A stretch of DNA of 64,000 bases from Agroathelia rolfsii (Eukaryota; Basidiomycota; Agaricomycetes; Amylocorticiales; Amylocorticiaceae): the NCBI GenBank assembly GCA_018343915.1, contig JABRWF010000001.1:682001-746000 (forward strand), written 5' to 3'. The notes beneath the pieces are model-generated. The model did no database searches, was not told the origin of the DNA, and saw only the letters and a program-made list of their open reading frames with translations. Numbering within the stretch: position 1 is the stretch's first letter; each line of letters begins with the position of its first letter. This document shows positions 12,516-63,254 of this stretch, piece after piece. The position numbers and the translations under genes are program-made.

Positions 12516-13512
12516 GTGGGAAGAGAAGGTGAAGACAAAGTAATAAACGGACGAGCGGGGACGGCGGCGGGAGCGTATCCCCCTACTCGGTGGATGTCCT
12601 ATTCATCCATGATAAATAACGGGCGAGGTAGTCAACAGAAGCGAGAGTATCGCAAACATCTTTGGCGCGGTGTCACAACAACATCACTTTGTGATGGTAG
12701 ACTATGCTGCCGCTGATATTTACGAAATCCAAAGACCGTTGTCAGGTGGCTTTGCAAAGGCCGGGGGGTGTTGTGCGCGCGGGTGCCATGTGTTGTTTGA
12801 AGATTTCAGTCGCGATAATTTACTTCATGCTCTGAGCTCCAACGGGTGCCACATGAGGCGAGTAATGTGTGCGTTGTAGGCTTCGGCGAACCAAGGCAGG
12901 AGCTGGCTAGGCTTAGGGGGTACTGTCGATACCAAGGATGAAAAAAATAAAGTCAATCGGGATCCATGGCGATGAGCGTTTGGAACCTGATGAAAAAGTC
13001 ATTTCAGAGGTTACGGCGGGAGTGTGCAGCGGTACGAGTACCCTGCAGCGGATGGTGCCGAAAAATTCCAAACAGGGAGAAGAAAAAACGGCCAAAACAA
13101 AATGTGGCAAGGGGAGAAAAACAATAAAGTGTAAAATGTCAAACAAATGATGAAGAGTATACAAGTATACTACAAAAGAAGGAAAGTGTTCCATATGTGT
13201 GCCATGAAAAGAAATAAAACAAAAAGGAAACAAAGTGAACCACATGCACAGGAAATAAAACAAAGTGTGCAAAGTGTGAGAATAGAAATGTACAAGAAAG
13301 GTGAAGGAGAAAAGGGGTAACTTCCTCCGCACGTCGAAATCGATGATGGTGCTGTCGGGTCACGCGGCGTGTTGTGTGTGTATGTCTGGGCCGCTTCGAT
13401 TGCCAATCGGGCTGTGCGGCGTGTGACGCATACGCAACAGGGTCGGAAGAAAACTTTTTTTCGTGCACCGCGTGACGCTGTGACCGTGCAACTACTCTTA
13501 CTTCACTACAGC

Positions 13513-14443
13513 ATGGCTCCTCAAAACAATAAAGGAAAAGGCAAGGCCAGGCTACCCTCCTCCAACATCAATCAAGAGGAGGAGCTTGAGCGCCAGATGC
13601 GCGAGCACGAGGAGACAATGGCGCGTCTGCGTGAAGAACGGAACGCGGCGCGACGAAAACACGAAGCAGCGGAGCGTGCGGCGTAAGAGAAGAAAAAACA
13701 GGAAGAAGAGGAGAGACGACGCAAGGAGGAGGCGAAGCAGCGCAAGGCTGAGGCGGCAAAGCAGGCGGAGCGGTGGAAACCTGCCCGCATCATGCCTGAG
13801 GGTGGTAGGGCGCGTAAGCGCGCTGGTGACGCCAAAGTCGTCGAGGTCGAGGCCCCCGCGACGAAGCAAAGGGCGACGGAGCCATTGCCTCTAGTGGTAA
13901 GTCTTCCCAATGAAACAAAAAAATAACTCTTTTCCCTCAACAGCAATTGGACAGGCATGCGACGCATGCCAACGACGATCGAAGGCCTGCAAGTGGCCGC
14001 GAGATGGTGGGGCCAAGTGCGTGCCGTGTCAGGCCAGCCACCTCAAATGTAACGGGATCGACCTCGTCAGGCCCGGGAATGGGCTAGGGGCTAACGACCC
14101 CCTCGTTGTGGGGCTCCTGGGTGCCCTGGAAAGGATCACCGAGGTCCTCGAGGCCATTGCGGGTGGACTGGTGGGATGAGCGACAAGCGGAGGTGCCGGC
14201 GTGCAGCACGTCGAGGCTGTCGAGCCGCCCTCAGTGGAGGAGTTGGCCGCGGAGTCGATCGCCGGACCCTCCGGCATAGCAAGGGATGATGATGCTGAGG
14301 GGATGGCCGAAGAGGTCGGCGAGGAGAGGATTGAAGAGCGACCTGAGGAGGATGAGGGTGAGGCGGCGAACGAGAACGAGGAGGGGAAGGGCGAGGAGGA
14401 GGACGTCGCCGAAGGCTCCGGCGCGTCTTCGCCTTCCCAGTAA
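13513..14443 (+). pseudogene. Decayed Zn(II)2Cys6-type coiled-coil gene inside element E
   Basis: Two exons fit one protein: 13513-13896 and 13955-14443, joined by a 58-bp GT-AG intron (GTAAGT donor, GGACAG acceptor). Exon 1 encodes a basic and acidic coiled coil (EEELERQMREHEETMARLRE) and has a TAA at 13684-13686. Exon 2 opens with C-x2-C-x6-C-x9-C-x2-C-x6-C (CDACQRRSKAC ... CVPCQASHLKC), the fungal binuclear zinc cluster pattern. It then has a hydrophobic helix (DPLVVGLLGALERI), a TGA at 14177-14179, and an acidic tail in the same frame to TAA at 14441. It is antisense to the host retroelement. Zn2Cys6 proteins usually bind DNA; the intron and opposite orientation suggest capture of genomic DNA. 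The two stops make it a pseudogene here. Confidence 0.75.
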
Positions 14444-14890
14444 TTGGTTGTATATCCATCGTAGTTGTCGCGGCCCACGGCCACTAATGCATCCTGTGTT
14501 GGCATCCAAATGTATGAAGAAGGAAAATATAGAAATGGAAAAACAACAGGCACTAAGGCCAGGAAAGCCATGACAAGCAGAGAAGAATGAAAAGATAAGT
14601 CTTGTCAAGGAGAACAATGATGGTACAGCAATACTGTCCAAGTATAAAGTAGTCCAAAAGGAGTGTGAATTCAAGGGAATGACGAGACCACAAAGAAATA
14701 TAAAAAATGGAAGGTCTTGTCATAGAAACATGATGATACTACAAAATACTATCAAAGTATGACGTAGTCACAAAGAAATTAAAAGGACAAATAAAAGAGT
14801 AGTCGGAAAATACTGTCAAGCAGGATTTTCTGACTCGAAGGTCAGGAAGAAAGAAAGGAAGGGACAAATAAGAAGGTAGTCGGAAAATAC
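14444..14890 (-). repeat. 5' interior of element E: short direct repeats, no gene
   Basis: This stretch next to the right LTR repeats motifs such as GTAGTCGGAAAATACTGTCAAG (near 14792 and 14878) and GGACAAATAA. The copy at the LTR border lies where a primer-binding site is expected (minus strand GTATTTTCCGACTAC), but I cannot match it to a tRNA. Confidence 0.5.
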
Positions 14891-15765
14891 TGTCAAGAGC
14901 TGCCTTCGCAGCTAGCTTGGGCGGTGCGGCGATACCCCTGGAGCGCTAACTGCTACAGCTGCTCACTGCTAGATAGCAGCCCTGTGGGTTCGTGGAGTCG
15001 CCTCTTCAATATCTCGGGGCCTGCGGCGATACGGGTGGCGCGGCAAGCAGTCAGGCGTATGGCAGGTTGAACGGGAGGTCCGGCGAGATCAGGCGTAGAG
15101 CGAGAGATGTCAAGCCAGAGAGAAGAAGCTAGACAAGACACTCGAGGACGCTCGAGTCCACAGGTTGACCGCTGGCGATGCAGCGGGTGTAGGGCTTGTT
15201 TAGGGCCAAACACACTTAATTTTCCGACTACTGTAACTACTACATCAGGTACAGTACATATATACGAAGTATAGTAGTCGTAGAAAGATAAATAAAGAAA
15301 TGGGAGAAAACAATAAAGACAATAAGTAATAGCGCACGCCGCGCGCTCTGGTAGTCGTGCCACGCTGTGCACGAAGGCAGGGGTACGTTCCTTCAGAACC
15401 ATCGGCGGTCTGATCGTCGATCAGAGCGCGATCAAGATGGAGAACCAAGCGCGATCTTCCCAGATAGGAAAGATCCGCTGGTGCGGGCACATGGCGACTC
15501 GAGGAATGTGGTCGAGAAGGCCAGTCGGCATGTGGGACGCTCTGATGGACAGAAGCGCATCGATGATGGGAAGGAAGCACGGGAAGGCGCTGTGCACATG
15601 GCTCCGGGGAAACGTCAGCGGACACATTGGAAACGCTTCCGATGCACGGGATACACGGCGACTCAGAAGGGAGGGCGTCGCCGGTGACTCCGTCGTAGAT
15701 GTTCGCGTGTGTCGATGTGTACAATCGGGACGTTCGGCGGCCGGGTGCGTTGGCGGGTCGTGACA
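14891..15765 (-). repeat. Element E 5' LTR (right copy, 875 bp)
   Basis: It has the same length as the left LTR with scattered substitutions, many at CpG sites, and is followed by the target duplication GCATC. Confidence 0.92.
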
Positions 15766-17210
15766 GCATCACTCTGACTCATTATAACTAATAATGGTGC
15801 GATATCACGCCATACTTAGCATTACTGCACACAGACCATGTAGCTGCGTACAGACCAGGTAGAATTAGTATATAACCCTGTAGTGCCTCCACCTGAAGAC
15901 CTCAGATTCGTTCTCTTTGTCTTCAGGTAAGCACAGTAGTGCTTTGTATTAAATAAATGTTAACATAATAAAACCTTTGTCTTCAGAGCCCTTCATCTCT
16001 ATAGGCTATCAGAGCCTGTCTCCCTCCCTCTCTCTCTCCCCACCAAATCCTCTCTGCTGTGTGCTAGGAGGTAACAAGTGTGCTCTGTGCTGCTTGTTGT
16101 TTAAAGGCAGCTTAGTGCTCCTTTACGTTAGAACGCGTAAGACAGGTCCAGCCCTTTGGGTGACCATTCGCGTTTCTGTAAACAAACACATCGTGCTTAG
16201 TGCACTTAAGGGAACAAAGGCATTGCCCTACGTTCCTCGCGGTTAAGATACATCGCACGCCTAACAGCATACACAAGATAGTTTGTGTTCTGCGTGTAGA
16301 CCTCGCTTGAAAGTCTTGCAGACTTAGAGTAAAGCCCGGTGACACAAAGACTCAAACTTGCGTGATAGTTGTGACAGCGCAAGGAAGTGTACACCCACGC
16401 GTCCCTAGCCTTGGGAGTTGTAAAACAGCCGTTACTTGGCTACCCCGTACCTTTGAGGGGTTAATGTAGGCTTAGGTTGAGTTTTGGTGACAAGAGTCAG
16501 GTGTGCTCTTGACACCCTACCTGAATGAACAGGGTTTGTATCACGCGCAATGCCCCTTTGTATTGAGGACTTATGACTCAGAAGGCCCTCTGGTACTAGG
16601 GCTACGTATTCTACTTAGATGCCATTGAGGCCTTATACTAAATAGGCAAGAAGGGGGGGGAGAGAGGGGTGTGGGCTAGGAGAACAAGCCTGAAGGCGAG
16701 ATATATATTAGTATTTATGTACGTGTACAAGAGGGGGGGGTGCCCTTACCTGAAGGCGAGAAGGTCAAAGCTAAGGTTTAGGTAAGGGCTACAAGCTTGT
16801 ATTTATACATAAAATGAAGGGCCCGTGCGCAGCCTTAATGGTCTGTGCACAGCAGGGTTCGTAAGCGGAAATGACTAGAATGCAGGGGCAGTGCTTTATG
16901 CCTAAGTCCAATGAGCAACCGATCGGAATGATGAGTCTAGTACTCCTTAGTAATTGCACAGTAATCGGAACGACCCTGGTTCCTAAGTCTAGACCTTTTG
17001 ATGAAAAGGAATGATCTAGACTCCGCCTTCCTAATATACTCTTGTCACAAGCACTCCTGTCACGTGGGGCTAACACAGCCAGTCACATGCGCGTCAAGAT
17101 GTTGCCTGCAAGGTATTTCGTCCGTATCTCAGTCAATAAAAATCGTAAAAATACAATAAAAATATGTACATGTCCGTAAGAAAAAGGCGAAAAATGTCCA
17201 ACTCATAACA

Positions 17211-17902: not shown

Positions 17903-18977
17903 CTATATGCCATTCTATTTATCTTATTAGCTCTAGTCAGGCTGATACTGCTATAGATATGACTAAAGCCCTTAAAAATACACTTGGGGAGTCTATATCT
18001 ACCTAAACCATGTATAGGAGACTAAGAGAGCAGGGTTTAAAGGCTGTAACCAAGAAAAAAAGTTCTAATCTTAAGCCTCATCATAAAAGGGCTAGATTAA
18101 ACTTTGCTCTTGAGCACCAGCACTGGACTCTGGAGGACTAGAAGAGGGTGATCTGGTCTGATGAGACTAAGATCAATAGGATTGGGTCTGATGGAAGGAA
18201 ATGGGTGTGGAAAAAGAAGGGAGAAGGGCTTAGTAATAGGTTAGTTCAGGGAACACAAAAGTTTGGTGGTGGAAACATCATGTTGTGGGGATGTTTTGGA
18301 TGGGATGGGGCTGGATATGCAACCAGGATTATTGGGAAAATGGACTCAGAAGTCTATGTGTCTATTTTAGAGGATGAACTCCAGGATAGTATGGAGTTAT
18401 GGAACAAAAATACTAACAATATTATATTTCAGCAGGATAATAACCCTAAACATAAGAGCAAACTAGCCATGAAATAGTTTGAAAACTATGAATTGGAAGT
18501 TATGGAGTGGCCTGCTAACTCCCCAGACCTCAATCCTATTGAGCATCTATGGGATTACCTCAAAAGAAAGCTAGCAGACTATGATGAGCCTACATCATCA
18601 CTTACTAGGCTTTGGGAGAGGATAGAGAAGGAGTAGAATGCTATTCCAGTATCTGTTTGTCAAAAGTTGATTGAGAGTATGCCTAGAAGGGTGGCAGAGG
18701 TGATAAAAGCAAAAGGAGGATATACTAGATACTAAATTTAATAAAATTTGTATTTTGAAAATGTCAGCAACAAAACTGTCTCAATAATACCCCTTGAAAG
18801 AATAATACATAACTCTATGGTTTATTGACCAAATCACATGACCTAGGGCTCAATTTAAAGCAGATATAGTATACTTGATAGGAGTATTTTTAGTATAATT
18901 TTAAGTATTTTATTTCTGGAGATATAGATCAAAAATTGTAAAAAATGCAAACATTGAGACAGTTTTGTCACTCAGTG
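17903..18977 (+). mobile_element. Truncated Tc1-type transposon, copy 1
   Basis: The left end and transposase N-terminus are missing. The right terminal inverted repeat ends CACTCAGTG before TA at 18978-18979. The sequence matches the complete copy at 26823-28443. Confidence 0.9.
17906..18735 (+). pseudogene. Tc1-type transposase, 5'-truncated, several stops
   Basis: The residual protein matches the C-terminal two thirds of the transposase at 27065-28081. The first catalytic Asp (VIWSDETKINR) is in the open segment 18148-18477, followed by the second (FQQDNNPKH) and the distal Glu (LNPIEHLW). In-frame stops occur near 18003, 18138, 18475 and 18634. At the position where the other two copies have TAG, this one still encodes tryptophan (MELWNKN), so it descends from a different source copy. 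Confidence 0.88.
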
Positions 18978-19064
18978 TATAAGACAAAAAACTACAAAAG
19001 ATACAAAAGGAATAATTGTCTTAATATATACAGAAGTATATACTATATTTGTAGCTGTGTATTG

Positions 19065-24650: not shown

Positions 24651-25227
24651 TGTTATGAGTTAGACAGTATGCCTGTAATTTTTGCCCTTTTCTTATAAAC
24701 ATATATATATTTTTATTGTATTTTTATGATTTTCCTTAATAAGTTATAGATGAAATACCTTATAGGTAACATCTTGACATATATATAACTAGCAGTGTTA
24801 GCCCCATGTAACAGGAGTGCTCATGATAAGAGTATATTAGAAAGGCAAAGTCTAGATCATTCTTATTTTATCAAAAGGTCTAGACTTAGGAACCAGGGAT
24901 GTTCCAATCACTATGTAATTACTAAGGAGTATTAGACTCATCATTCCAATTAGTTGCTCATTGAACTTAGTCAGAAAGCACTGCCCCTGCATTCTAGTCA
25001 GTTTTGCTTATAAACCCTACTATATATAGACTATCAAGGCTGTGCATAGGCCCTTCACTTTATGTATAAATACAAGCCTGTAGCCCTTACCTAAACCTTA
25101 GCTTTGACCTTCTTGCCTTTAGGTAAGGGCACCCCCCTCTTGTATTCCTTACATATCCACTAATATATATCTCACCTTTAGGCTTACATCTGTCCTAGCC
25201 CACTCCCTCTCTCCCTTTCTCCCTATT
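24651..25227 (+). mobile_element. Family C LTR, 3'-truncated
   Basis: It begins TGTTATGAGTTAGAC and follows the family C LTR as far as the CT-rich tract, where a fragment of element E's LTR takes over. CpG sites are strongly depleted relative to 45868-46869. Confidence 0.85.
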
Positions 25228-26599: not shown

Positions 26600-26822
26600 T
26601 CATGAGCTTATTATGACATGTCACAAATGTAATGAATGCCTGTTATAGGCAAGTTTCCTTATTTGTTCTTCTGCTGTATGTACGAGTTTCTCCTATCTCT
26701 CCGTGTTTCTACTGTACTTCTCTTTTCTTGCTTTCTTTACCTACTGTCATGGCCAATTCACAAGAGATTGATTGTTACGATTATTTAGTATTTTACATGT
26801 ATATAAGAATGATCTACATATA

Positions 26823-28443
26823 CACTGAGTGACAAAACTGTCTCAATGTTTGCATTTTTTACAATTTTTGATCTATATCTCCAGAAATAAAATACTTAAA
26901 ATTATACTAAAAATACTCCTATTAAGTATACTATATCTGCTTTAAATCAAGCCCTGGGTCATGTAATTTAGTCAATAAACCATAGAGTTATGTATTATTC
27001 TTTCAAGGGGTATCATTGAGACAGTTTTGTTGCTGACATTTTCAAAATATAAATTTTATTAAATTTAGTATCTAGTATATCCTCCTTTTGCTTTTATCAC
27101 CTCTGCCACCCTTCTAGGCATACTCTCAATTAACTTTTGACAAACAGATACTGGAATAGTATCCCACTCCTTCTCTATCCTCTCCCAAAGCCCAGTAAGT
27201 GATGATGTAGGCTCATCATAGTCTGCCAGCTTTCTTTTGAGGTGATCCCATAGATGCTCAATAGGATTGAGGTCTGGGGAGTTAGCAGGCCACTCCATAA
27301 CTTCCAATTCATGGTTTTCAAACCATTTCATGGCTAGTTTGCTCTTATGTTTAGGGTCATTATCCTGCTGAAATATAGTATTATTAGTATTTTTACCCTA
27401 TAACTCCATACTATCCTGGAGTTCATCCTCTAAAATAGACACATAGACTTCTGAGTCCATTTTCCCAATAATCCTGGTTGCATATCCAGCCCCATCCCAT
27501 CCAAAACATCCCCACAACATGATGTTTCCACCACCAAACTTTTGTGTTCCCTGAACTAACCTATTACTAAGCCCTTCTCCCTTCTTTTTCCACACCCATT
27601 TCCTTCCATCAGACCCAATCCTATTGATCTTAGTCTCATCAGACCAGATCACCCTCTTCCAGTCCTCCAGAGTCCAGTGCTGGTGCTCAAGAGCAAAGTT
27701 TAATCTAGCCCTTTTATGATGAGGCTTAAGATTAGAACTTTTTTTCTTGGTTACAGCCTTTAAACCCTGCTCCCTTAGTCTCCTACACATGGTTTGGGTA
27801 GACACAGACTCCCCAAGTGTGTTTTTAAGGGCTTTAGTCACATCCATAGCAGTATCAGCCTGACCAGAGCTAATAAGACAGATGGAATGGCGTATAGCAG
27901 TAGAGGAAAGCTTAGAGGGACGGCCTCCTAAGCTTTTAGAAAGGTGGGGACAGTGTTTAGAACATATTCTGCTAACAGAAGAATGGGATACACCAGTAGC
28001 TTTAGCAATATCCCTAGTAGAATGATGTTTATTAAGCAAGCAGATAACATCAAGGACTTGTTGATTGGATAAAGGTTTCATAGTAGTATAGAGATGATGG
28101 TGGTAGCAGTTTAAGAGTTGTTTGTGTTTATTTGTACTAAATAGGGGGTATTTAAATGTGTGGTGGCACTGCTTACATAATTAGTATAGTATAACTTGTG
28201 TTTTACTATAAAAAGTATATTTCAATTAAGTGGCAACAAAACTGTCTCAATGATACCCCTTGAAAGAATAATACATAACTCTATGGTTTATTGACCAAAT
28301 CACATGACCTAGGGCTCAATTTAAAGCAGATATGGTATACTTGATAGGAGTATTTTTAGTATAATTTTAAGTATTTTATTTCTGGAGATATAGATCAAAA
28401 ATTGTAAAAAATGCAAACATTGAGACGGTTTTGTCACTCAGTG
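26823..28443 (-). mobile_element. Tc1-type DNA transposon, copy 2 (1,621 bp, both ends present)
   Basis: It is flanked by TA (26821-26822 and 28444-28445). The terminal inverted repeats are each about 211 bp (26823-27033 and 28233-28443). Each repeat holds two related boxes, an outer CACTGAGTGACAAAACTGTC and an inner inverted ACAGTTTTGTTGC, resembling the IR/DR layout of Sleeping Beauty-like elements in which transposase binds twice per end. Confidence 0.95.
27065..28081 (-). pseudogene. Tc1-type DD34E transposase with one in-frame TAG
   Basis: A 338-residue frame starts at ATG 28081 and ends at 27065. Two N-terminal helix-turn-helix regions (NQQVLDVICLLNKHHSTRD; GRPSKLSSTAIRHSI) precede the DDE core: VIWSDETKI, IFQQDNDPKH, and LNPIEHLWD with 34 residues between the second Asp and the Glu, the Tc1 spacing. 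The only break is TAG at 27398-27400 within MEL*GKN. The copy at 63255 has the same TAG, while the 18-kb copy has TGG. The enzyme would cut and paste the element at TA sites; without readthrough it lacks two catalytic residues. Confidence 0.92.
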
Positions 28444-28576: not shown

Positions 28577-31357
28577 TCATGCTCTAAGGCTGACATTATA
28601 TTGGATCAAAAACCATTAATCTTTTGGCTAGTGGATGCCAACAAAGTATATTGAATATATAGATCAGCAGAACTTTACATTACAGTATCAAAGCTGTTAA
28701 CAAACATATAGTCATGTTTGGCTGAGACAAAATGGCTATCTTGAAGGAGAAGAAGATAACAATTATTTCTCATCACAAGAAGAGTGGGACAATTGGGACC
28801 CATATCACGCGGACTGGCCCAAAGATTTCCCCATCAAGCAATTTAACCTTTCTAATTTAGAAGAAGAAGAATTTCAAGAATTCACATTTGATTCATCACG
28901 TTCAACTCATGATCTCACAGATCAGACATTACATTGCTCATGTGTTCTTTATGACCCTTTAACTTTTAATCCTGATCAAACATCAGAAGATCCAGATCTC
29001 ATAAAGAAACTGGCACAATTAAGCTGACCACCCATGCCAAACAAATTCTTTGGACCTATTACTGCATTTGAGTATTACTTTCTCTATAAGGACAATTAGG
29101 AAATGTCACCTTCTAAAGAATTCAATAGCATGCCCAAACTTGAAGAACAAGGCACTGTCATGAGAAGGACAATTTTGCCAATTTTTCGATTATTTTCTTG
29201 TACTATTTGGATGAATATTTAATTAGTTATCACATTTTCTTTCCTTTTTCTTCAATTCTTATAAAAGTTACCCCTTTAGGGCATGTACTATGGGCAGTGC
29301 AGTGGTCATGTGATTGGCCCTCATGTGTTCCAAGCCGTATATCACAGGAGTAATCTTGGGGCTGTGCGTACTTCCATTTCATCATTATGTACAGCCTAGG
29401 AACACAGCCTTCCTTTTCCCTAAACTATTCCTAATAGTTACCAGTACTGGTCCAGAAACAGACCTCCACACAGATGCCTGGTGGAGTTAGGCTAAATGTT
29501 CTCCCCCTGCATTGCCACATTTATACTTCTATTTCCCTCTGCGCATAGACCATCCATGCTGTGTACGGACCATTCAATATTAGTATAAATAGTGCATGTA
29601 ACTTGTCCTGAAGAGCTCAGCTTCGACCTCTTCACCTTCAGGCAAGTAAACCCCAGGTTGTATTCTCTTATATAGATTACTAATAAAAATCTTTGCCTTT
29701 AGGGTATTATCTCTCAGGCCTAGGCCATCATCCTAGCCCCTCTCTCTCTCTCTCTCTCTCTCCCCTTTTTACTTGGAGGTGGTGTAAATCCCCTCATGTG
29801 TGAATTTATAAGAGCATTAATTACTTAGGAGATAAGAAAGTACCCGGCACACCCTCAATAGATATAGGGATTGCGTAACTGTGGGAAAACTCCTAAGTAG
29901 GTACTTCTATTACTTAATAGTTAAGAGTATATTGTTTGGTTGAGTGTACAAGTAGGCTCCCCACACCCAAAGTCACGAGATTAAGGAGTGTACCCTTGAC
30001 AGGCATAAATTACAGGGAGTGGCTTGTCAGGACAAAAGGAGCTATTAAGGCATCAAAGGGCTAAGACTTCTTAGAGAAGCGATTGGATAGCAAGACGGAT
30101 GGAATTGCCAACTTCTTAGGTGAAAAGATTGATATTCACAATCAGATTAGTAATGCAATCTGACAATGCCTTCCCACATCAATTCTGATGAAATATGATA
30201 ACATCAAAGAAGTTTGCGAAATCCTTGCTAAACTTAAAGTCAAATTTAGAAGCTGCTTACCGGCTAACAAGGCCGCTATGATGGCAAAACTTTTCCAAAT
30301 CAAGTGTACGGACAATCACCAAATTAGGCAGCACCTGATGAAACTTGAGAATATCAAGAAAGAGCTTGTTGATATGGGCACCTCCATGCCAGACTATGTT
30401 TACATCAATACAATTATGAATTCACTTCCCCCTACATATGACGCACTCATCAGTTCTGTCACATTATCTTACGTTGTCAGTAAGACCAATGCGGGGCATC
30501 CAGACAAATATATTGAAATCTCTATGAACCTAGTTGTCACAGCTGTGCAAAAAGAGGCCGATTGCTGCATTATTCAAAGGGGCGGCAAGCATCACAAATC
30601 ATCCAACACCGCTGCCGAAGCTTCTGCCGCTGACACATCAAATTCATTATACAGAAAGGGAAATCATAGGGGAAATCAAGGATGCAGTTGTAGTTATTAC
30701 CAAGGAAACCATCCTAGTCACATAAATCGAGGTGATAACAGCAACATCACATGCTTTGTATACGGTAACAAGGGTCACAAATTGCCACAATGCCTATAGC
30801 ATAAGAGCAAAGTGAACGTCACAGCACTCAAAAAGGGAAAGAAGAAGAATTCAAATGAAAAAGCCTTATCTACATCTACAGATATCCCATCTGAAGAGAA
30901 ATCCAAAGAATCTTATGGCCTGAGTACTGTTGCCGACTATGACAATGTTATGTCACATGATACATCTGAAATCGCTACCATCACAGCAAATGCTACACAT
31001 TATGTCGATGTTTTTGATTCTGGTGCATTGTCACATATGATGCCTAATAAGGAGCATCTTACCAAATTGGTCAAAATCCCAGGAGGACATCCCATTCATG
31101 CCACAAATAATACCATTTTTCACGCCACTGCAATCGGTCACATGAGGATTGAATTCCCTAAAGCAAATAGTGGCCAGACGATTTATCTTAGGGACATGCT
31201 GCACACCCTTATCTTATTAGGGGCTCTTGACTCAATAGGATGGTCTTGGGAAGGTGGCAAGAATCAAATTCAAATATTCAATAAGAAGGGTCATCACGTT
31301 GCTACAGTGCATAGATCGGGCATACTTTACCATATTAGGCATATCCCTGAAGCTATT
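28577..31357 (+). pseudogene. Copia H gag-protease region, decayed and truncated
   Basis: Open but stop-ridden coding runs from about 28740, is split by solo LTR K2 and continues from 30002. 30188-30799 encodes the Gag core (EVCEILAKLKVKF, NSLPPTYDALI) and a zinc knuckle altered from CxxC to a degenerate CFVYGNKGHKLPQC. After a TAG, 30812-31357 encodes an acidic linker and the protease-like FDSGALSHMMPNKEHL, close to the Copia motif DSGASxHM. Integrase and RT are missing because LTR L2 cuts the element at 31358. The product would be a Copia capsid and protease. Confidence 0.8.
29156..30001 (+). mobile_element. Solo LTR K2 (family K, 846 bp)
   Basis: It begins TGTCATGAG, ends CCCTTGACA and is flanked by GGCAC/GGCAT (29151-29155 and 30002-30006). 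It contains the shared Gypsy-LTR stem arms (29601-29613 and 29636-29647), a third arm at 29694-29703 and a CT repeat near 29737-29763. Confidence 0.87.
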
Positions 31358-32215
31358 TGTCAAGGGATCACTCTTGACTATACGGAGATAATCAAAAATA
31401 ACCTCCCAACCTTTAGCAAAGTACCTAAGACAGAAGTTTTCCCACACTACACAAACCCCTTTATCTATTGAGGGTGGTAAGGGTACTCTGCTTATACCTT
31501 ACGAAGCTCCGGAGACTTAAGTCGGAGGGGAGCGGAGTTCCCGGAGGTTCCGAATCACGCATCACGCATCTAACTAACTAGTCTAGGGAATTTCACCCTA
31601 CTAATTGGAATTTATATGTGCTAAGACGTGGGGCTAGGCCCGGAGGTTAGAGAACCCTAAAGGCAAAGTTGATTGAGTAATTTCTAAGAGGAATACAAAC
31701 GCTAAATACTTGCCTGAAGGCAAAGAGGTCAAAGCTGGCCTTTCAGGACAAGTTACATCAACTACTTATACTACTACGAAAGCTCCACGCTAGTTCTGAC
31801 GCGGAGACAAGAGATAGAAAAAGTAGAATATGCAGGGGGAGACCTTTTCCCTAACTCCGACGGGCAGCCGTGCGGAAATACAACACTTGCGGAAGCTCCG
31901 CGCTCAGGAGCGGAGCTCCTTAAGAGTTCTGGAGCGGAAGCTCAGAGGTATGTAGCGGAACCAGTATCCATTAGGAGTCAGTCAGTGATCAGAGGTTTGT
32001 ACTCTGGAGTTATGCGGAATGGTGAACAGGAAATGCACAACTCACGATTACTCCTGTAGCGTGCGGCTTAGTTATATAAGGGCCAATCATAGGACTACTC
32101 ACTGCCTACAGACCACGCTCTGAGGGTAATATAATAAAAGAAAAATGAAACAAAATATAATACATTGTTTAAATAATAACAAAAAATTCATAGTCCAAAA
32201 TTCCAACTCATAACA
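31358..32215 (-). mobile_element. Family L LTR (L2, 858 bp) at a chimeric junction
   Basis: The ends TGTCAAGG and CATAACA are intact, but flanking bases CTATT and ATAAC do not match, and the two sides belong to different elements (Copia H on the left, Gypsy D gag on the right). This marks a deletion or recombination breakpoint. CpG content is high, so this copy is younger than L1. Confidence 0.82.
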
Positions 32216-33787: not shown

Positions 33788-33792
33788 CAACT

Positions 33793-34777
33793 TGTTACAA
33801 GTTGCTCAAAGTATTATAATTTTATTTTGAATTTTTTATTATTTTTCTGAATTTTTCCTGATTTTTCTCTATTTTTTGATATATATATATTGTATATTAC
33901 GTAAATATACACTCTGATGACTAAGCAAGTCATGTGACCAGTCGACCATGTGACTGGCCATCATGTGATCACTAGTCATGTGACATATTATGTAAGCAGA
34001 TTCTAGAACATGGGTCCGGATCATGACACCACTTCAGACTCACTATAATAATAATGGCGCAATATCACGCCATACTTAGCATTGCTGTGCACAGACCATG
34101 TAATTGTGCACAGACCAGGTAGAAATAGTATATAACCCTGTAGTGCCTCTACCTGAAGACCTCAGATTTGTTCTCTTTGTCTTTAGGTAAGCACAGTAGT
34201 GCTTTGTATTAGATAGAATGCTAACATAATAAAACTTTGTCTTCAGAGCCATCATCTCTTAAGGCGTGACTGCCTGTCTCCCCCCCTTTCTCCTCCTCTC
34301 TATCCCTTCCAAATCCCTTAGGCTTTGTGCCAGAGGGTTACTGTGTGCTTAGTGCTACAGTAGTTAAAGAGGTTGCTCTGTGCCCCTCTTTTGTTAGCGT
34401 GCATAAGACAGGTCCAGGCCTTTGGCTGACCATTTGCATTGCTGTATACATCACATAGTGCTTAGTGCACTCAAGCAAGCAAAGGCATCGCCCTGCATTT
34501 ATTGCGGTTAAGATACATTGCACCCATATCTGCATACACAAGATATTTCTTGTCTTGACAATAGGCCTTGTGTGAAAGCTTAGTAAGCTTGGAGTAACAC
34601 CTGGTAATTGAAGAGCTAGAAGTTGCGTGAGAGCAGAGACCGGGCAAGGAAGTGTACACCCATGTATCCTAGGTCTTAGGAGTTGTAAAACAGCCTTACT
34701 GGCTACCCCGCACCTTACAGGGGTTGACGTAGACACTAGTTGAGTTTTAGTGGCAAGAGGCAGGTGTGCTCTTGACA
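33793..34777 (+). repeat. Element B 5' LTR
   Basis: It begins TGTTACAAG and ends CTTGACA. It contains two TGCACAGACCA boxes, TATATAAC, stem arms at 34151-34160 and 34179-34188 (one mismatch) and a third arm at 34239-34246 after AATAAA. Transcription probably starts near the first arm. Confidence 0.92.
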
Positions 34778-35178
34778 TTAGAACGAATCTCCCCTCCCCT
34801 TTCTGCGCTAGCTGCTTTGTGCAACTAGAGGTGGTGTTGTGAGCCACATTATTTTGAGCAAGAAACAATTACTGTAGAAAATTTTGTAAACTACCACGGT
34901 CAAGTACGATACTAAGTAGTAGTCTTCACATTCGTACATCTCTTGTTTTGGGAGTATTCTTGGCCAGCTTGCAAGTAGTATTAGTATCCACGGTTGCATT
35001 GGTTTTTTTGAGCTATTAAAGGGAACATCACCTGAGTGGATAGACGAAAAAGACTCCAGTCGCTACAAGTAGCCCAAAACAAGTAGCATATATTCAGTAG
35101 AATTAGGCCTAGCTCAAAGGGCAAAACAAAAACCTTTTATCTTGTACAAATCACTTTGGGAGTCTCCAGTCTTTACTG
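34778..35178 (+). other. Element B leader
   Basis: About 400 bp of untranslated leader start with TTAGAACGAATC at the LTR edge. No convincing tRNA primer site is visible. The gag frame is already open near its end, so the true gag start may lie slightly upstream of 35179. Confidence 0.5.
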
Positions 35179-36486
35179 TTGAGCTTGCCCACCATTTCAC
35201 ACCAAACCCCACCTCAAGAACCCACTCCTCCTGCTGAGTCAGAAGAAGAATCCTCAGAAGAAGAATCATCGGAAGCCGAATCCTCTGACGAGGAAAATCC
35301 TATATTCTTACCCCCATTCCCATCGGCTCATACGTCAGCACAAGTTTCAGCCCACGTATCACCTCAACCAGAATCACCCATGGCACAACAAGTCAACAAT
35401 GCTGCACTTATGCAGCAGCTCATCCAAAACCAGACAATGATGATGCAGTGGATGCAGCAGCAAGGCGAGTCGCGAGGCAAGCCAAAAGAAATTGGCCATG
35501 CGCCACCTACGTTCGACGGACAATGGGTTAATTATCATCCATTCCTTCAAAAATTTCAGGCTTATCTGGAATTGAACCCAAGAGTGTATGTCACGGATGA
35601 GGAAAAGGTCAAGTACCTTTTAGGGTTAATGGTGGAAGGTGCCATGGCTTGGTCCAGCCTGTGGTACACCGAATTAGGACTACAGAACCGGGTACCTGGG
35701 CCCGTAACATACCAGGAAGTAATTGAAAGCTTCAAATCCTTATTTGGGGCCTTTGACAAAAAAGTAGCAGCAAGAGACCAGCTGCGTCACCTGCAACAAG
35801 GCACCACATCCACAAGGAATTTTGGGATGGCCTTTATGTTGTTAGGTAAAAGGACAGGGTTATCCAATGATGACCTTAGAGAGAAGTACCTGGAGAGGAT
35901 GAACGTCAAGCTCCGACGTATCATTACAGGCTGGGATAGGGACACCTCAACCCTAACCAAGTTGATGAATGCAGCACACAACGCAGAAGTCAACCTAATG
36001 AAGGAGGAGATGTTATCCAGCAAAAGATACTGGTACAACAACAACCCCCAGTCTGACCTCCAGCGGAACGATCCTGACGCGATGGATATCTCGGCTACTA
36101 TATTGGGAAGGACACCCAATGTATCAAAAAACCCATTCCTGAGTGCAGGTCCTGCCCAGCAGACCTCCCCGTTGCAAGTGGCTGCAATGCAAAACAATCC
36201 GACCACACAATCCAACAATCCGTTTAGGCGGAAAGACATCATCTGTTATAATTGCCAAAAGAAAGGGCATATAGCACGGGACTGTAGGAGTCCAAAAGCT
36301 GATAAAGGCAGCTCAAACAATCCTTTCCAGAAGGTGGCAGCAGCATCAGCGCCCACACCAACATCACCACCACCGCCAGCGAACCAGGGGCCAACAAGTA
36401 GCCTGATGACACAGGATGACATGTTTAACATGATCCAAGAACAAGGCCAAATGATTGTGGCCTTAAAAGACAAGCTGGGTTTTTAA
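35179..36486 (+). CDS. Element B Gag
   Basis: The frame ends at TAA 36484-36486. The first in-frame ATG is at 35381 (MAQQVNNAALMQQ), but the acidic segment before it (EEESSEEESSEAESSDEE) resembles the N-terminal part of element A's Gag, so a non-ATG or spliced start is possible. A helical Gln/Met-rich stretch is followed by the retrotransposon gag core (PTFDGQWVNYHPFLQKFQAY ...) and one CCHC zinc knuckle (CYNCQKKGHIARDC) near the C-terminus. The last codons hold the slippery GGGTTTT. The protein forms the particle that packages element RNA. No stop or frameshift interrupts it. Confidence 0.9.
   Translation: MSLPTISHQTPPQEPTPPAESEEESSEEESSEAESSDEENPIFLPPFPSAHTSAQVSAHVSPQPESPMAQQVNNAALMQQLIQNQTMMMQWMQQQGESRGKPKEIGHAPPTFDGQWVNYHPFLQKFQAYLELNPRVYVTDEEKVKYLLGLMVEGAMAWSSLWYTELGLQNRVPGPVTYQEVIESFKSLFGAFDKKVAARDQLRHLQQGTTSTRNFGMAFMLLGKRTGLSNDDLREKYLERMNVKLRRIITGWDRDTSTLTKLMNAAHNAEVNLMKEEMLSSKRYWYNNNPQSDLQRNDPDAMDISATILGRTPNVSKNPFLSAGPAQQTSPLQVAAMQNNPTTQSNNPFRRKDIICYNCQKKGHIARDCRSPKADKGSSNNPFQKVAAASAPTPTSPPPPANQGPTSSLMTQDDMFNMIQEQGQMIVALKDKLGF
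36477..36483 (+). promoter_or_regulatory. -1 frameshift heptamer GGGTTTT at the gag-pol junction of element B
   Basis: In the gag frame CTG GGT TTT TAA the heptamer G GGT TTT precedes the stop directly. A -1 slip gives GGG TTT TTA AAT CAG and continues open into pol at 36537. Position and heptamer are conserved in elements A and D. Confidence 0.75.
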
Positions 36487-39400
36487 ATCAGTCAGAGTAT
36501 GCGGCCAATGCTACTGATCAATTTGTACAAAATAAAATGTCTTCTATTTTTACTTCTTCTTCCTTTTTGATTTCTGCTTCTTCTGTACAAGGTGTGCATG
36601 GACAACACCTAAATATACCTATTATGTTCCATGGACATTTCTCTACTATTTCAGTATCGGCTATGATTGATTCTGGAGCAACCTCCACCTTTATAAATAA
36701 AAAATTTGTAGAAAAACATAACATAAAAACTTCACAACTACATAAAAAAATTCCTTTGTACAATATAGATAATTCTCCCAATGCGATTGGTTTCATTTCA
36801 GAATACGTTACGCTCTTGACCCAGATAGGACAGGAAAAACAACGATTGGTATTCTTAGTAGTAGACATTGGTACCGAAGATGTAATCTTAGGTATTGACT
36901 GGCTAAGACTAGAAAACCCTGTCATTAACTGGAAAAAGGGGAATGTAACTTTAATGGACGACTTGCTAAAAGATAAGGAATACAAAAAAATCAATAAAAT
37001 CATAAAAGATGAGGAATCCCCTCCAAAATTGGCTGCAACTGTGAGTTTGCCACCCCAATACCAACAACATGCCAGGGTATTTTCTGAGGCCGAGTCTCAA
37101 TGCTTTCCTACCAGTAAGCCATATAACCATAAAATCGAACTGGTAGAAGGAGTAGAGATGAAACAAGCCAAGGTATACCCCCTGTCAATCCCAGAGTTAA
37201 AAGAGCTAGATGTGTACCTTGAGGAGAATCTGGCAAAGGGCTACATAAGAAAATCCCAAAGCCCTTATGCCTCACCTTTCTTTTTCATACCCAAGAAAAA
37301 TGGAAAATTAAGACCTATAGTGGATTATCGTCGACTAAATAATATCACTATAAAGAACTCCTACCCGCTACTGCTCATCTCCTCTATCGTTGACGGACTC
37401 TCTAGGGCCAAAATATTTACCAAACTAGATCTACGATGGGGATACAATAACGTATTGATCAAAGAAGGACACCAAGAGCGGGCAGCATTCATAACCCCTC
37501 AAGGACTCTTTGAACCCCTAGTAATGACATTTGGTTTATGTAACGCCCCAGCCACATTCCAAGCCATGATGGATGAAATATTTGCAGACCTAATCGCACA
37601 AGGATTAGTGTATGTATATATAGATGACATCATTATTGCCACTGCCAACCTAGAAAAACACCAACGATTGGTACATGAAGTTTTACAAAGGTTAGCGGAA
37701 AATGACCTATTCGCAAACTTAGAAAAATGTCTATTCGAAGTACCTGAGGTGGAATTCCTGGGCGTAATAATTAGCTACAACCACGTACAAATGACCAATG
37801 AAAAGGTGCAAGCAATCCTAGACTGGCCTGTCCCTAAGACAGTCAAGGATGTGCAAAAATTCAGAGGTCTAGCTAATTATTATCGGAGATTTATCAAAGG
37901 GTTCAGCAATATTACTAAGCCCCTCGATAAATTAACAGGCAAAGGCGCTTGGAGATGGGAAAAGGAGGAACAGAAATCATTTGACGATCTCAAAAAGGCT
38001 TTCACTACAGCCCCAGTGTTGGCAATATACGATCACCAAAGAGAAAGTCGAATTGAAACTGATGCCTTGGGTTACGCAACGGGTGGAGTCTTCTCCCAGT
38101 TGCAGGATGATGGTGAATGGCACCCCATCGCCTTCCATTCCAAATCCATGGATGATGCTCAACGAAACTATGACATCTGGGATAAGGAAATGCTGGCAAT
38201 TATCCGAGCATTGGAAGAGTGGCGTCATTATATCATTGGATTGCCCAAACCGGTAGAAATTTGGTCTGATCATAAGAATTTGGAGTATTGGGCAACAAGT
38301 CAGCATTTGAGTCGACGACAAGCACAATGGTACAGGATCCTACAAGAATACAATTTTACCCTGTGCTACAAAAAAGGGTCAACCAATGGACGAGCTGATG
38401 CCCTATCCCGACGACCAGATTTTTACACGGAAGAATCTCAGGACAATCTCAATGTCACTGTCTTACAACCCGCCCATTTTAAAATCATGGCTGCAAAAAG
38501 AGGTCATGTTTTGGTTGAAGGAGAAAAGGAGATCCTGGCAGAAGTTAGACGGGAAAGCACCGAGTGTTATGAGTTCACTAACTTTAGTCTGATTTTTCTT
38601 TTATTTTTCCTTTATTTTATCCTTTCTTTTCATTGATAGTTTAGTATTACTTAGGTTAGGGTTTAGGTCATGTGATTTGTACATCACATGATTATTACTA
38701 TATTAACCTCATCATGTACACCTGTAGACTTTAGACTGTTGTCTTTGTCTACAGGTGAGTAACCTATGTATTTTCTACTCTACTTTAATTTAACTTTGTC
38801 TACAGTTCCCTTTTCAGCATCACTAAGAAGTGTGAAGCTAACCTAGAGAGGTAGCTAGCCCAGAGAGGTAGCTAGCCTAGAGAGGTAGCTAGGCCAGATG
38901 GACAAGGAGTCCAGCCTTGAGGCCATCTTAGTGAGAGCATGAGTGGTGTTGGGAGGGGGACCTCCTGACACCGAGCTGTTGGAATCCCTCTATCAGATTG
39001 TCAAGATAGGTCCACAACAAATTGCCTTGGGATTACAGGATTGGGAAACAGAAGACGGACTAGTGCTATACAAAGAAAAGGTATTCGTGCCCCCCAATAA
39101 AAGTCTAAAAGAAAAGATTTTGGCCAAATACCATGACTTGGCGCTAGCAGGACACCCGGGACGCACAAAGACACTAGAACTTATCAGCAGAAATTACTAT
39201 TGGATTAACATGACAAAAGAAATAAACCAATACGTAGATTCTTGCCTACTATGCCAAGCGAATAAACCTAGCAGACAAGCATTACCTGGATTACTCCATC
39301 CCCTCCCCGTACCAGGCAAACCATGGGAACATGTAACCTCAGATTTGATTGTCAAATTACCCAAGTCACACGGGTTTGACTCAATTCTAGTGGTAGTAGA

Positions 39401-40451
39401 TAGGCTAACAAAACTGGCACACTTCATACCAACCAATGAAAACATCTCTGCCAAAGACGTAGCTGATCTATATGTCAAAAATGTATTCAAACTTCATGGT
39501 ACACCGTCAACATGGACCTTGGATCATGGCCCCCAGTTTGCAAGCCAAGTGATGAAAGATATACATGCAAGTTTACATATCAAAACTGCGTTGTCCACTG
39601 CATACCACCCACAAAGTGATGGACAAACCGAGCGTGTAAATCAGGAGGTAGAACAGTACCTTAGAATTTTCTGCAATCATTGGCAAACAAATTGGGTGGA
39701 TTGGCTACCTTATGCGGAATTCATGCATAACAATAGGAAAAATGAGAGTACACGCACGAGTGCTTTCGAACTCACCTATGGTTATATTCCAAATTGGGAA
39801 GCCAAGGACATCCCAGATCCAACTCCAGGGGCCTTCAACTGGATAGAAAATGCCAAGGAGGCACAAAAGGAAGCCCAAGCAGCATTAGGGATGGCAAGAG
39901 AGCAAATGGAACAGTCGTACAACAAAGGAAAAAAGATGTTCCCAGACATTGAGGAAGGACAGGAGGTTTGGCTTAATACACGGAACCTGAAGCTTGATAG
40001 ACCATCCAAAAAACTAAGTCAAAAATGGATTGGACCCTACAAAGTACAGAAGAAGCTGAACGACCTGAACTACCAACTGGATCTCCCAGACAACCTCAGG
40101 ATCCATAACGTCTTTTACGTACATTTACTAAAGCCTCATCATGCCTCAGACCATCACCAAAAACTGCTGCCCCCTGTAGAAGTAGAAGGAGAAGAAGAGT
40201 ACAAAATGGAAGAAGTACTCAATTTGAGATTGCGGCGTGGAAAACTGGAGTTCTTAGTAACTTGGAAAGGATATCCAGGGGAACAAACCTGGGTCAGAGA
40301 ATCCGATATGCATGCAGACGATGCTATCAAAGATTTCTACAAGTCCAATCCAAGTGCACCAAGAAAAATCAGCACAGCAACGTTTGGTCTCTTACCTTTC
40401 CAAACTTGGGATAACTTGACAGAATGGCAACCCAAGGCGGATTGCCCCTAA
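36484..40451 (+). pseudogene. Element B Pol (protease, RT, RNase H, integrase, chromodomain), interrupted by a solo LTR
   Basis: The -1 frame runs 36484-38564, is interrupted by LTR R (38565-38970) and resumes at 38971-40451. Aspartic protease: MIDSGATSTF. RT: PKKNGKLRPIVDYRRLN and YIDDIIIA. RNase H: IETDALGYATGGVF and NLEYWATSQHLSRRQ. Integrase: HHCC zinc region (HPGRTKTLEL ... CLLCQANK) and catalytic residues in TSDLIV, LDHGPQFAS and DGQTERVNQE. C-terminal chromodomain: KMEEVLNLRLRRGKLEFLV, TWKGYPGEQTWVRESD. Frame is the same on both sides because LTR plus duplication equal 411 nt, but the LTR contains stops, so only protease-RT-RNase H can be made. All catalytic residues appear intact. Confidence 0.92.
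38565..38970 (+). mobile_element. Solo LTR R (406 bp) in element B pol
   Basis: It begins TGTTATGAGTTCAC, ends CCTCCTGACA and is flanked by CCGAG (38560-38564 and 38971-38975). It contains an 11-bp perfect inverted repeat (38719-38729 with 38747-38757), a third arm GTCTACAG (38798-38805), and three tandem copies of AGAGAGGTAGCTAG(C) near 38846-38895. A fragment resembling its 3' end lies near 54695. Confidence 0.93.
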
Positions 40452-40462
40452 GAAGGGGGTAA

Positions 40463-41445
40463 TGTTACGAGTCGCTCAAAGTATTATAATTTTATTTTGA
40501 ATTTTTTATTATTTTTCTGAATTTTTCCTGATTTTTCTCTATTTTTTGATATATATATTGTATATTACGTAAACATACACTCTGATGACTAAGCAAGTCA
40601 TGTGACCAGTCGACCATGTGACTGGCCATCATGTGATCACTAGTCATGTGACATATTATGTAAGCAGATTCTAGAACATGGGTCCGGATCATGACACCAC
40701 TTCAGACTCACTATAATAATAATGGCGCAATATCACGCCATACTTAGCATTGCTGCGCACAGACCATGTAATTGTGCACAGACCAGGTAGAAATAGTATA
40801 TAACCCTGTAGTGCCTCTACCTGAAGACCTCAGATTTGTTCTCTTTGTCTTCAGGTAAGCACAGTAGTGCTTTGTATTAGATAGAATGCTAACATAATAA
40901 AACTTTGTCTTCAGAGCCATCATCTCTTAAGGCGTGACTGCCTGTCTCCCCCCCTTTCTCCTCCTCTCTATCCCTTCCAAATCCCTTAGGCTTTGTGCCA
41001 GAGGGTTACTGTGTGCTTAGTGCTACAGTAGTTAAAGAGGTCGCTCCGTGCCCCTCTTTTGTTAGCGTGCATAAGACAGGTCCAGGCCTTTGGCTGACCA
41101 TTTGCATTGCTGTATACATCACATAGTGCTTAGTGCACTCAAGTAAGCAAAGGCATCGCCCTGCGTTTATTGCAGTTAAGATACATTGCACCCATATCTG
41201 CATACACAAGATATTTCTTGTCTTGACAATAGGCCTCATGTGAAAGCTTAGTAAGCTTGGAGTAACACCTGGTGATTGAAGAGCTAGAAGTTGCGTGAGA
41301 GCAAAGACCGGGCAAGGAAGTGTACACCCGCGTATCCTAGGTCTTAGGAGTTGTAAAACAGCCTTACTGGCTACCCCGCACCTTACAGGGGTTGACGTAG
41401 ACACTAGTTGAGTTTTAGTGGCAAGAGGCAGGTGTGCTCTTGACA
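40463..41445 (+). repeat. Element B 3' LTR
   Basis: It follows the polypurine tract and ends CTTGACA before CAACT. Promoter-like boxes GCGCACAGACCA (40754-40765) and GTGCACAGACCA (40774-40785), TATATAAC near 40797, stem arms 40819-40828 and 40847-40856, AATAAA and third arm 40907-40914 are present. Confidence 0.93.
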
Positions 41446-41450
41446 CAACT

Positions 41451-45867: not shown

Positions 45868-46869
45868 AAGGCTTGCGCGCTTGACTAATCCAACAAACAC
45901 AACCCTCTGTAAGGTACGAGGGCAGGCTGTAAAGCCGGGTTTTACGTGTATTGCTTGGTTGGATATATACAAACACCCACGTGCTCCCGTTGCTACTCTT
46001 TCGTAATAGAGCACTCCCTTAGTACTTTACTAGGCTCGTGTATCGGTACTCTAGATGTTACTGTCTTCCCGTGTTACTCGCTTTGTGTCAAATACTATTG
46101 TTGTGCTTCTTACTCAGAGTAGGCGGCTTAGCCCACCGTGGTCTACAGATGTTCGCAGGGACTTGTTACTGCCCTGGCCTAAATGAATAGGGCTTCTATC
46201 ACGCATATGCCCTCTGGTATATTAGGGACTTGACACTTAATGACCTCCTTGTAACAAGGTCTCGTATGCTTACTAAGATGCCCTATAGGCCTTATACTTA
46301 ATAAGGGGGAAGAGAGAGAGAGGGAATAGGGGGCTAGGATGTGCGTAAGCCTGAAGGCAAAAATATATTAGTTGTTATATATAGGGATACAAACGGGGGT
46401 GCCCTTACCTGAAGGCGAAAAGGTCGAAGCTAAGGTTCAGGTAAGGGCTACAGGCTTGTATTTATACATAAAATGAAGGGCCCATGCGCAGCCTTGATGG
46501 TCTGTGCGCAGCCGGGGTTTGTAAGCAGGATCGTATAAAATGCAGGGGCAGTGCTTTGTGACTAAGTCCGATGAGCATCCAATCGGAATGATGAGTCTAG
46601 TACTCCTTAGTAATCGCACAGTGATCGGAATGACCCTGGTTCCTGAGTCTAGACCTTTTGATGAAAAGGAATGATCTAGACTCTGCCTTCCTAATATACT
46701 CTTGTCACAAGCACTCCTGTCACGTGGGGCTAACACAGCCAGTCATACGCACGTCAAGATGTCGCCTGCAAGGTATTTTGTCTATATCTCAGTGGATAAA
46801 AATCGTAAAAATACAATAAAAATATGTACATGTTCGTAAAGAAAAGGCGAAAAATGTCCAACTCATAAC
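45868..46869 (-). mobile_element. Solo LTR C (1,002 bp) in element D pol
   Basis: Plus-strand ends TGTCAAGG and CATAACA are flanked by TAAAT (45863-45867 and 46870-46874). It is the same LTR family as that of elements A and D, with high CpG content, so it inserted after D had decayed. It contains a perfect 13-bp inverted repeat (46401-46413 with 46436-46448). Confidence 0.92.
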
Positions 46870-52914: not shown

Positions 52915-53710
52915 GGAGGAGTGTTGGATAATAAGGACAATACACAGCTACGAATATAGTATGTACTTTTGTATGCGTCAGAACAATTATTCTTTTTGTA
53001 TCTTTTGTAGTTTTTTGTCTTATGTCCCACAATTAACGTACATGTATAAAACCGATACATTTTATCTACCAAATATACAAGTCATTTTCTCATCACATTT
53101 ATTCCAACATATAAATACAAGTATGTAGCCCTTACCTGAACCTTAGCTTCAACCTCTTTGCCTTCAGGTAAGGGCACCCCCCCCATTTTGTATTCTCTAC
53201 ATAAAACTAATATACCTCGCCTTCAGGCTTGTTTTTCCTAGCCCACAACCACCTCTCTCTCTCTCTCCACTATTTAGTGTAAGGCCTAAGGGCATCTAAG
53301 TAGTTTACGTAAGCCCTAGTACCAAAGGGTGGCCCAAGTTATAAGTCCTCAATACAAGGAGGCAGTGTGCATGAACCAAGTCCTATTCATTTAGGCCAGG
53401 GCAGTAACAAGTCCCTGCAAATATCAGTAGACCATGGTGGGCTAAGCTGCCTACTTCGAGTAAGAAGTATTTCAATAGTATTTGATATGAAGCAAGTAAC
53501 ACAGGAAGACAATATGTCTAGAGTATCGATACATAAGCCTAGTAAAGTACTAGAGAATTACACTATTACAAAGAGGTAGCAATGGGAGCACGTGGGTGTT
53601 TGTTGAAATATCCAACCCAGTAACACATGTAAAACCCGGCTTTACAGCCCGCCTTTGTACCTTATAGAAGGTTGTGTTTGTTGGATTAGTCAAGCATGCA
53701 AGCCTTGACA

Positions 53711-63023: not shown

Positions 63024-63254
63024 TATCAAGAGCACACCTGCCTCTTGATTACTAAAACTCAACCAGTGCCTACAAAAACCTCTATAAGGTGCAAGGTAGC
63101 CTATAAGGGCTGTTTTACTTCTCCCAAGGCCTGGGATGCACAGGTGTACACTTCCTTGCACTATTATGACTTTTATGCAAAATTGAGTCTTCTTGTTACT
63201 AAGCTTTACTCTAAGTCTACTAGACTTTCAAGCAAGGTCTACAATTTAAACATA
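63024..63254 (-). mobile_element. Fragment of family B LTR
   Basis: It corresponds to the last 230 bp of element B's LTR in reverse (TATCAAGAGCACACCTGCC ...), degenerate, and is cut by the Tc1 copy. Confidence 0.8.

Follow-up and report, generated by a model that had tools for sequence, protein, structure and literature searches.

Probable introns within the self-primed long terminal repeats of five Gypsy families of Agroathelia rolfsii and their possible restoration by strand transfer

Reverse transcription is expected to erase introns, and retroelements that keep one must protect unspliced RNA. In the retrotransposon Tf1 the first 11 nucleotides (nt) of the RNA are complementary to the primer-binding site, and RNase H cuts between nt 11 and 12 (PMC7175516). 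Self-priming has likewise been proposed for Tj1 (PMC4600332), and a three-duplex 'pretzel' around the primer and the primer-binding site has been described for Tf1-like elements (PMC10085805). The cited passages of PMC7175516 mention a cryptic intron in Tf2, without stating its position, and the Cryptococcus elements Tcn2-Tcn5, fungal Gypsy elements for which novel priming was proposed. In foamy virus one splice donor is treated differently in the two RNA copies by means of RNA structure, and this serves poly(A) choice (PMC3694450). An intron inside a self-primed long terminal repeat (LTR) was not found among the titles and abstract openings that literature searches listed. The present analysis concerns LTRs of the fungus Agroathelia rolfsii in a stretch of 64,000 nt (C1:682001-746000), referred to as the window.

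A preliminary description of the window had reported three complementary segments, arms a, b and c, in Gypsy LTR families, here called R, B, C, K and L. The three arms are real, stand above chance and recur in all five families, and they lie where they had been placed, with the complementarity that had been claimed for them. The LTRs appear to belong to self-primed Gypsy (Tf1/sushi-like) retrotransposons; the complementarity is visible in the DNA, and the 5' end of the RNA is estimated from TATA spacing. We think, with a probability of roughly 0.6, that these LTRs carry a short spliceosomal intron in their repeated (R) region, built in such a way that splicing spares it for the next generation. 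The match between primer and primer-binding site, a 12-nt repeat, the splice signals and an inverted repeat are plainly present; we infer every later step. The parts of the R and B copies are as follows (window positions).

38565..38970, + strand: solo LTR of the R family, 406 bp, TGTTAT..CTGACA, with target-site duplication CCGAG on both sides, inserted in pol of the B element
38699..38706, + strand: R TATA box, its start 34 nt before the probable transcription start
38719..38729, + strand: R arm a, matching the 5' splice-site region in reverse complement, on the side of the unique 3' region (U3) and upstream of the probable start
38733..38742, + strand: 10-nt self-primer of R, AGACTGTTGT, the complement of ACAACAGTCT, which follows the 5' LTR at the R loci L006, L014 and L017; the first base of the primer is the probable start
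38743..38754, + strand: the 12 nt that complete R exon 1 and form the core of arm b, CTTTGTCTACAG
38755..38805, + strand: R predicted intron, 51 nt, GTGAGT..CTACAG; its final 12 nt (38794-38805) are arm c and equal the final 12 nt of exon 1
33793-41445, + strand: B element, target duplication CAACT at 33788-33792 and 41446-41450, LTRs 98% identical
33793..34777, + strand: 5' LTR of the B element
34129..34136, + strand: TATA box of the B 5' LTR
34151..34160, + strand: arm a of the B 5' LTR
34164..34174, + strand: self-primer of the B 5' LTR, AGATTTGTTCT, 11 nt, with one G-U wobble to its own primer-binding site (T for C in the LTR loop)
34175..34186, + strand: 12-nt rest of exon 1 of the B 5' LTR, one T for C relative to the 3' LTR
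34187..34246, + strand: predicted intron of the B 5' LTR, arm c at 34235-34246
34780..34790, + strand: B primer-binding site AGAACGAATCT, 2 nt past the LTR
40463..41445, + strand: 3' LTR of the B element, with arm a 40819-40828, primer 40832-40842 and 12-mer 40843-40854
40855-40914, + strand: predicted intron of the B 3' LTR, arm c at 40903-40914
15869..15990, + strand: second B-family LTR, with TATA 15869, arm a 15891-15900, primer 15904-15914, 12-mer 15915-15926 and arm c 15975-15986

Further copies were sought in the whole genome (37.67 Mb, 8 contigs). For R, 27 of the 30 matched loci were collected, leaving out the partial matches L032-L034. The B sample comprised 30 of 40 listed matches (the best scored of 506 candidates), the C sample all 40 listed (39 fetched plus the window's own; best scored of 399) and two further window copies, the K sample 20 of 40 (best scored of 549) and two window copies, and the L sample 20 of 40 (best scored of 528) and one window copy. 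Because these lists hold the best 40 of longer candidate sets, the copy numbers of B, C, K and L are to be read as 'at least'. Stem pairs were counted in 28 rows of R, 34 of B, 23 of C, 22 of K and 21 of L, with one R and two B places counted twice; these window copies are also doubled in the counts of repeat identity, b/c coupling, TATA spacing and opening energy. The 150 TATA-spacing rows include three window C copies twice (45 C rows for 42 places), and the opening-energy set was corrected to 147.

The loop between arms a and b contains 10-11 nt complementary to a site 2 nt past the 5' LTR, the layout of a Tf1-type self-primer, which the preliminary description had missed. In B, AGATTCGTTCT pairs with AGAACGAATCT; the site was found at 10 distinct places when C/T and G/A were allowed at CpG, seven of them exact. 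The C, K and L primer AGCTTYGACCT pairs with AGGTYRAAGCT, and the pattern TGACANNAGGTYRAAGCT gave 208 matches in the genome and the reversed control none. The primer is 11 nt long in these four families and 10 nt in R, where the match was present at 3 of the 27 loci; the remaining loci are mostly solo or 3' LTRs. For R, a primer of 11 nt (with GACAACAGTCT following the LTR) was rejected: no primer-binding site was found for it, the LTR's own antisense loop alone matched, and the LTR ends gave 10 nt. Directly before the primer-binding site, the LTR ends of B (34766-34777) and C (locus L133) carry a short inverted repeat, CAAGAG/CTCTTG and GTCAAG/CTTGAC, respectively, which to the eye recalls a U5 stem. 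In R elements whose target duplications match, the LTRs are only 3.2 kb (L006/L007) and 5.1 kb (L014/L016) apart, so that some R elements are probably without genes and dependent on relatives; a third pair (L017/L015), 11.4 kb apart, may hold nested insertions.

In 148 of 150 rows the first A of the primer lies 34 or 35 nt after the start of the TATA box; in the other two rows the distance is 36 nt. Given this spacing, and since in Tf1 the RNA opens with its 11-nt primer, transcription most likely starts at the primer's first A (A+1), downstream of arm a. We had considered arm a as the 5' end of the RNA, and this was dropped once the loop proved complementary to the primer-binding site. In the preliminary description, arm a was part of an RNA switch at the 5' end of the RNA and alternated between arms b and c, as their mutual complementarity would allow; a start downstream of arm a had been named there beforehand as evidence to the contrary. 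Arm a begins 17-22 nt after the start of the TATA box, upstream of the primer complement, and would thus probably be outside the 5' RNA. Moreover, predicted a-c pairing in five window copies amounted to 0.00 expected pairs. Such a switch is therefore very improbable, and we prefer to see in the three arms the beginning of a self-primed transcript. As arm a precedes the likely start, the hairpin hiding the donor could form in the 3' copy of the RNA alone.

In the predicted transcript exon 1 consists of the primer and 12 nt before the donor, and these 12 nt recur at the end of the predicted intron. The recurrence of arm b as arm c had been noticed before; the repetition stands, and its length is 12 nt instead of the 8 nt given then. 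Predicted introns are about 50-61 nt long, with GTRAG or GCAAG donors and YAG acceptors, and a CTAAT/CTRAC-like motif, which we take to be the branch point, is clear in B, C and K and less so in R and L. The structure is located at the R region and overlaps splice signals, as had been proposed. The signature of 12-mer plus splice sites occurs 11 times in the window and was absent from 10 shuffled windows. Over offsets 1-12 the identity between b and c was 0.62-1.00, with its minimum at the CpG (offsets 8-9). Offset 13 gave 0.04 in R, 0.05 in L, 0.32 in B, 0.43 in C and 0.77 in K (0.09 at offset 14 in K). The identity stops at the end of the primer in all five families, including R with its 10-nt primer.

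Arms b and c change together between families at positions 1, 6 and 9. The same was observed copy by copy in the C family (n=42): position 1 was T/T in 41 copies and C/C in one, position 2 was T/T in 35, C/C in six and T/C in one. There were 24 b/c mismatches in total, against a permuted mean of 40.8, and none of 20,000 permutations gave so few. When a tree was built without b and c, position 2 changed five times in b and six times in c. For these pyrimidine changes at positions 1 and 2 an effect on splicing is not evident.

The 5' splice site is covered by the inverted repeat in the other families as well, of which the window contains the following copies.

46348..46466, - strand: C family LTR core; the TATA box is at 46462-46466, arm a at 46436-46448, the primer at 46421-46431, the 12-mer together with the donor at 46404-46420 and the 12-mer of arm c at 46351-46362
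29584..29705, + strand: K family LTR core; the TATA box is at 29584, arm a runs from 29601, the primer is at 29619-29629, the 12-mer, followed by a GC-type donor, at 29630-29641 and arm c at 29691-29702
31654..31770, - strand: L family LTR core; the TATA box is at 31766-31770, arm a reaches up to 31753, the primer is at 31726-31736, the 12-mer together with a GC-type donor at 31709-31725 and the 12-mer of arm c at 31657-31668
53128..53176, + strand: further C-family hairpin
25083..25130, + strand: further C-family hairpin, with CCTAAA/TTTAGG replacing CCTGAA/TTCAGG

Hairpins over AG/GYRAG (the slash marks the splice junction) have perfect stems of 10-13 bp at seven distinct places of the window, and that of K, the eighth, has 7 bp; places were counted because C-type palindromes come up on both strands. 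Twenty Markov-shuffled windows contained no stems of at least 9 bp, and on average 0.15 of at least 8 and 0.65 of at least 7, so stems over donor-like sites are far above chance. The exact R stem was found at 17 places in the 37.7-Mb genome, its reversed control at none. Because MAFFT misaligned arm a between families, stem pairs were counted on hand-set, family-anchored positions. Most core pairs are kept. Between families the 5' splice site and arm a change together at +2 (A-T / G-C), +3 (C-G / T-A), +6 (C-G / A-T) and -4 (T-A / A-T), which bears out the compensatory change reported earlier, and inside C there is a paired change at +8 (G-C 21, A-T 2). Arm a follows the GT-to-GC donor change of K and L, whose stems contain a bulged T, the small bulge mentioned before; the C stem includes five exon bases. 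The GC-type site CAG/GCAAGT was present in 22 of 22 K and 20 of 21 L copies, one L copy having A at +1; in the window it lies at 29642-29647 (K) and in the region of 31709-31713 (L).

These observations also bear on a DNA-level explanation, according to which the inverted repeat acts as a core promoter or binds a protein and the repeated 12-mer is left over from tandem duplication or intron insertion. Direct repeats flanking introns are known duplication products, and the repeat straddles the probable start. A fixed leftover would, however, decay independently in its two halves, whereas b and c are equal though differing between families, and arm a tracks the splice-site differences including GT to GC. 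We hold this explanation to be improbable.

Folding predictions agree with a donor that is less accessible in the 3' copy. In the unspliced leader of five window copies, pairing of donor positions -3 to +6 was predicted at 0.57-1.00, and the folding energy of the whole leader had z values of -3.8 in C, -3.0 in B and -2.9 in R. The predicted mean cost of opening the 5' splice site was 5.2-9.4 kcal/mol when the RNA began at A+1 and 7.1-20.9 kcal/mol with U3 included; U3 raised the cost in 140 of the 147 rows (28/28 in R, 34/34 in B, 42/42 in C, 17/22 in K and 19/21 in L). Shuffling the last 18 nt of U3 removed the effect (5.3-8.0 kcal/mol).

A scheme in which the intron is inherited through reverse transcription of spliced RNA would account for these features. 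Transcription would begin at the primer's first A, yielding a 5' R copy without arm a, in which the donor is easier to reach and the intron is spliced. Arm a, present only in the 3' copy at the end of U3, would pair with arm b and hold that copy unspliced. The primer would pair with the primer-binding site and be cut off before strong-stop synthesis ends, so that strong-stop complementary DNA (cDNA) made from spliced RNA would end in the complement of the final 12 nt of exon 1. Together with exon 2, these 12 nt align with arm c and exon 2 of a 3' copy left unspliced, with neither gap nor mismatch; the cDNA could anneal there, and its extension would recopy the intron, the 12-mer, the primer and U3. 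In each cycle the new arm c would be a copy of the old arm b, which would explain both the sharp identity boundary and the concerted b/c change. That first-strand transfer reinserts the intron each cycle, with the U3-R hairpin keeping the 3' template unspliced, seems to us somewhat more likely than not, and the link to splicing and strand transfer made in the preliminary description would be right in direction. The layout suggests a different answer to intron erasure, namely restoration by strand transfer. If true, self-priming gains an unsuspected consequence, and the persistence of 12-mer identity despite change between families is explained.

Alternatively, self-priming could be real and just unspliced RNA be reverse-transcribed, as in retroviruses, the hairpin and the intron tuning the ratio of spliced to unspliced RNA and the b = c repeat being a selected splicing motif. 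The splice signals and the hairpin over the 5' splice site fit this explanation, which keeps the intron without any new step. It gives no reason, however, for b/c identity ending at the primer end in five families, nor for b and c sharing their T/C differences at positions 1 and 2. Copies without the intron were sought by junction-spanning patterns. The exact intronless junction was found in seven LTR copies, five of K/L/C type and two of B type (one of the latter with a mismatch outside the junction), and controls gave 0. The K/L/C junction pattern had 492 matches with at most one mismatch; the 100 listed were the five exact ones and 95 one-mismatch copies, all of them intron-bearing and of K/L type (intron-bearing C copies fall outside the pattern). 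Intronless copies thus look rare (5 exact junctions in 492 matches, 100 rows listed), as expected if unspliced RNA is the template. Two of them, however, L127 and L128, form the 5' and 3' LTR of a single element; they are 98% identical, with target-site duplication CCCAG on both sides, which suggests that an intron-free template was probably copied; it would arise when the 3' copy was also spliced. D-type LTR sequence lies inside the second LTR of this element. A search for partner LTRs at the expected distances, covering L125, L129 and L130, found none that was convincing: L138 matched L125 on one side only (87%), and L142 matched L130 on both sides (92% and 75%), unlike a partner LTR. All in all, exclusive copying of unspliced RNA is possible but unlikely.

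Several points weigh against restoration by strand transfer. The scope is five related LTR families in one genome. Deletion between the 12-nt repeats, for example in a parent, gives the same intronless product as splicing, and LTRs with tandem introns, a possible by-product, were not found for C, the family to which the search was limited (0 matches). Some single columns beyond offset 13 match between b and c (e.g. R 16; K 16; L 15, 20 and 21). The tree was built from short pieces (~220 bp less masked parts) without support values, and among the 42 C copies some come as the two LTRs of a single element (L069 and L147, which both have the C variant). Within R, B, K and L there was no b/c co-variation (permutation p 0.22-1.0), and what varies there is almost entirely confined to positions 4, 5 and 10, as CpG or C-to-T decay; such uncoupled, deamination-prone variation is as expected from the aftermath of insertion. 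Whole-leader folding was not significant for K (z -1.6) and L (z -1.0), and the energy gain in K was small (5.2 to 7.1 kcal/mol, 17/22 rows). Finally, even in the predicted 5' RNA the donor is largely paired (mean 0.71-0.79 vs 0.89-0.99 with U3), and in B pairing rises with U3 in just 24 of 34 rows.

The frames of the B element match models of zinc knuckle, protease, reverse transcriptase, RNase H, integrase, SH3_Tf2-1 and chromodomain (PF00385), and the gag model scored slightly below the cut-off. Named matches of the integrase, among the best 120 of 2755, included Tf2-like proteins of Rhizoctonia and Ceratobasidium and a Parasitella protein; viral contigs contained no match to two motifs and no relative of this integrase. 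A family D element (10256-15770; 881-bp LTRs at 10256-11136 and 14890-15770, 96.6% identical) is nested in a B-type LTR (10020-10251 and 15767-16515), and no self-primer was found in its LTRs by a 9-11-mer search. A transposon with a transposase frame, presumably Tc1/mariner-like from the appearance of its translation, is present in copies 96-98% alike at 17903-18981, 26819-27897 and 63252-64000.

Compared with known systems, the B, R and C/K/L elements resemble the Tf1/sushi group in having, beside the 5' LTR, a primer-binding site complementary to the primer, and the B integrase, the only one examined, does so by its SH3_Tf2-1 and chromodomain PF00385. The R family primer of 10 nt differs from the 11 nt of Tf1. 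An intron in the R region that repeats the post-primer exon at its 3' end does not figure in the cited descriptions of Tf1, Tf2 and Tj1 (PMC7175516, PMC4600332). With Cryptococcus Tcn2-Tcn5 the elements share fungal Gypsy membership and proposed novel priming. The likeness to foamy virus would be the donor asymmetry between RNA copies (PMC3694450), with which the predicted opening energies agree here, weakly for K. As to a poly(A) signal downstream of the donor, AATAAA lies near arm c in the window copies of B, as the preliminary description had stated, and also in those of K, but not in those of C, L and R; control of 5' poly(A) is possible. In foamy virus a poly(A) site is selected, whereas here the LTR contains both donor and acceptor, and the intron would be restored by strand transfer.
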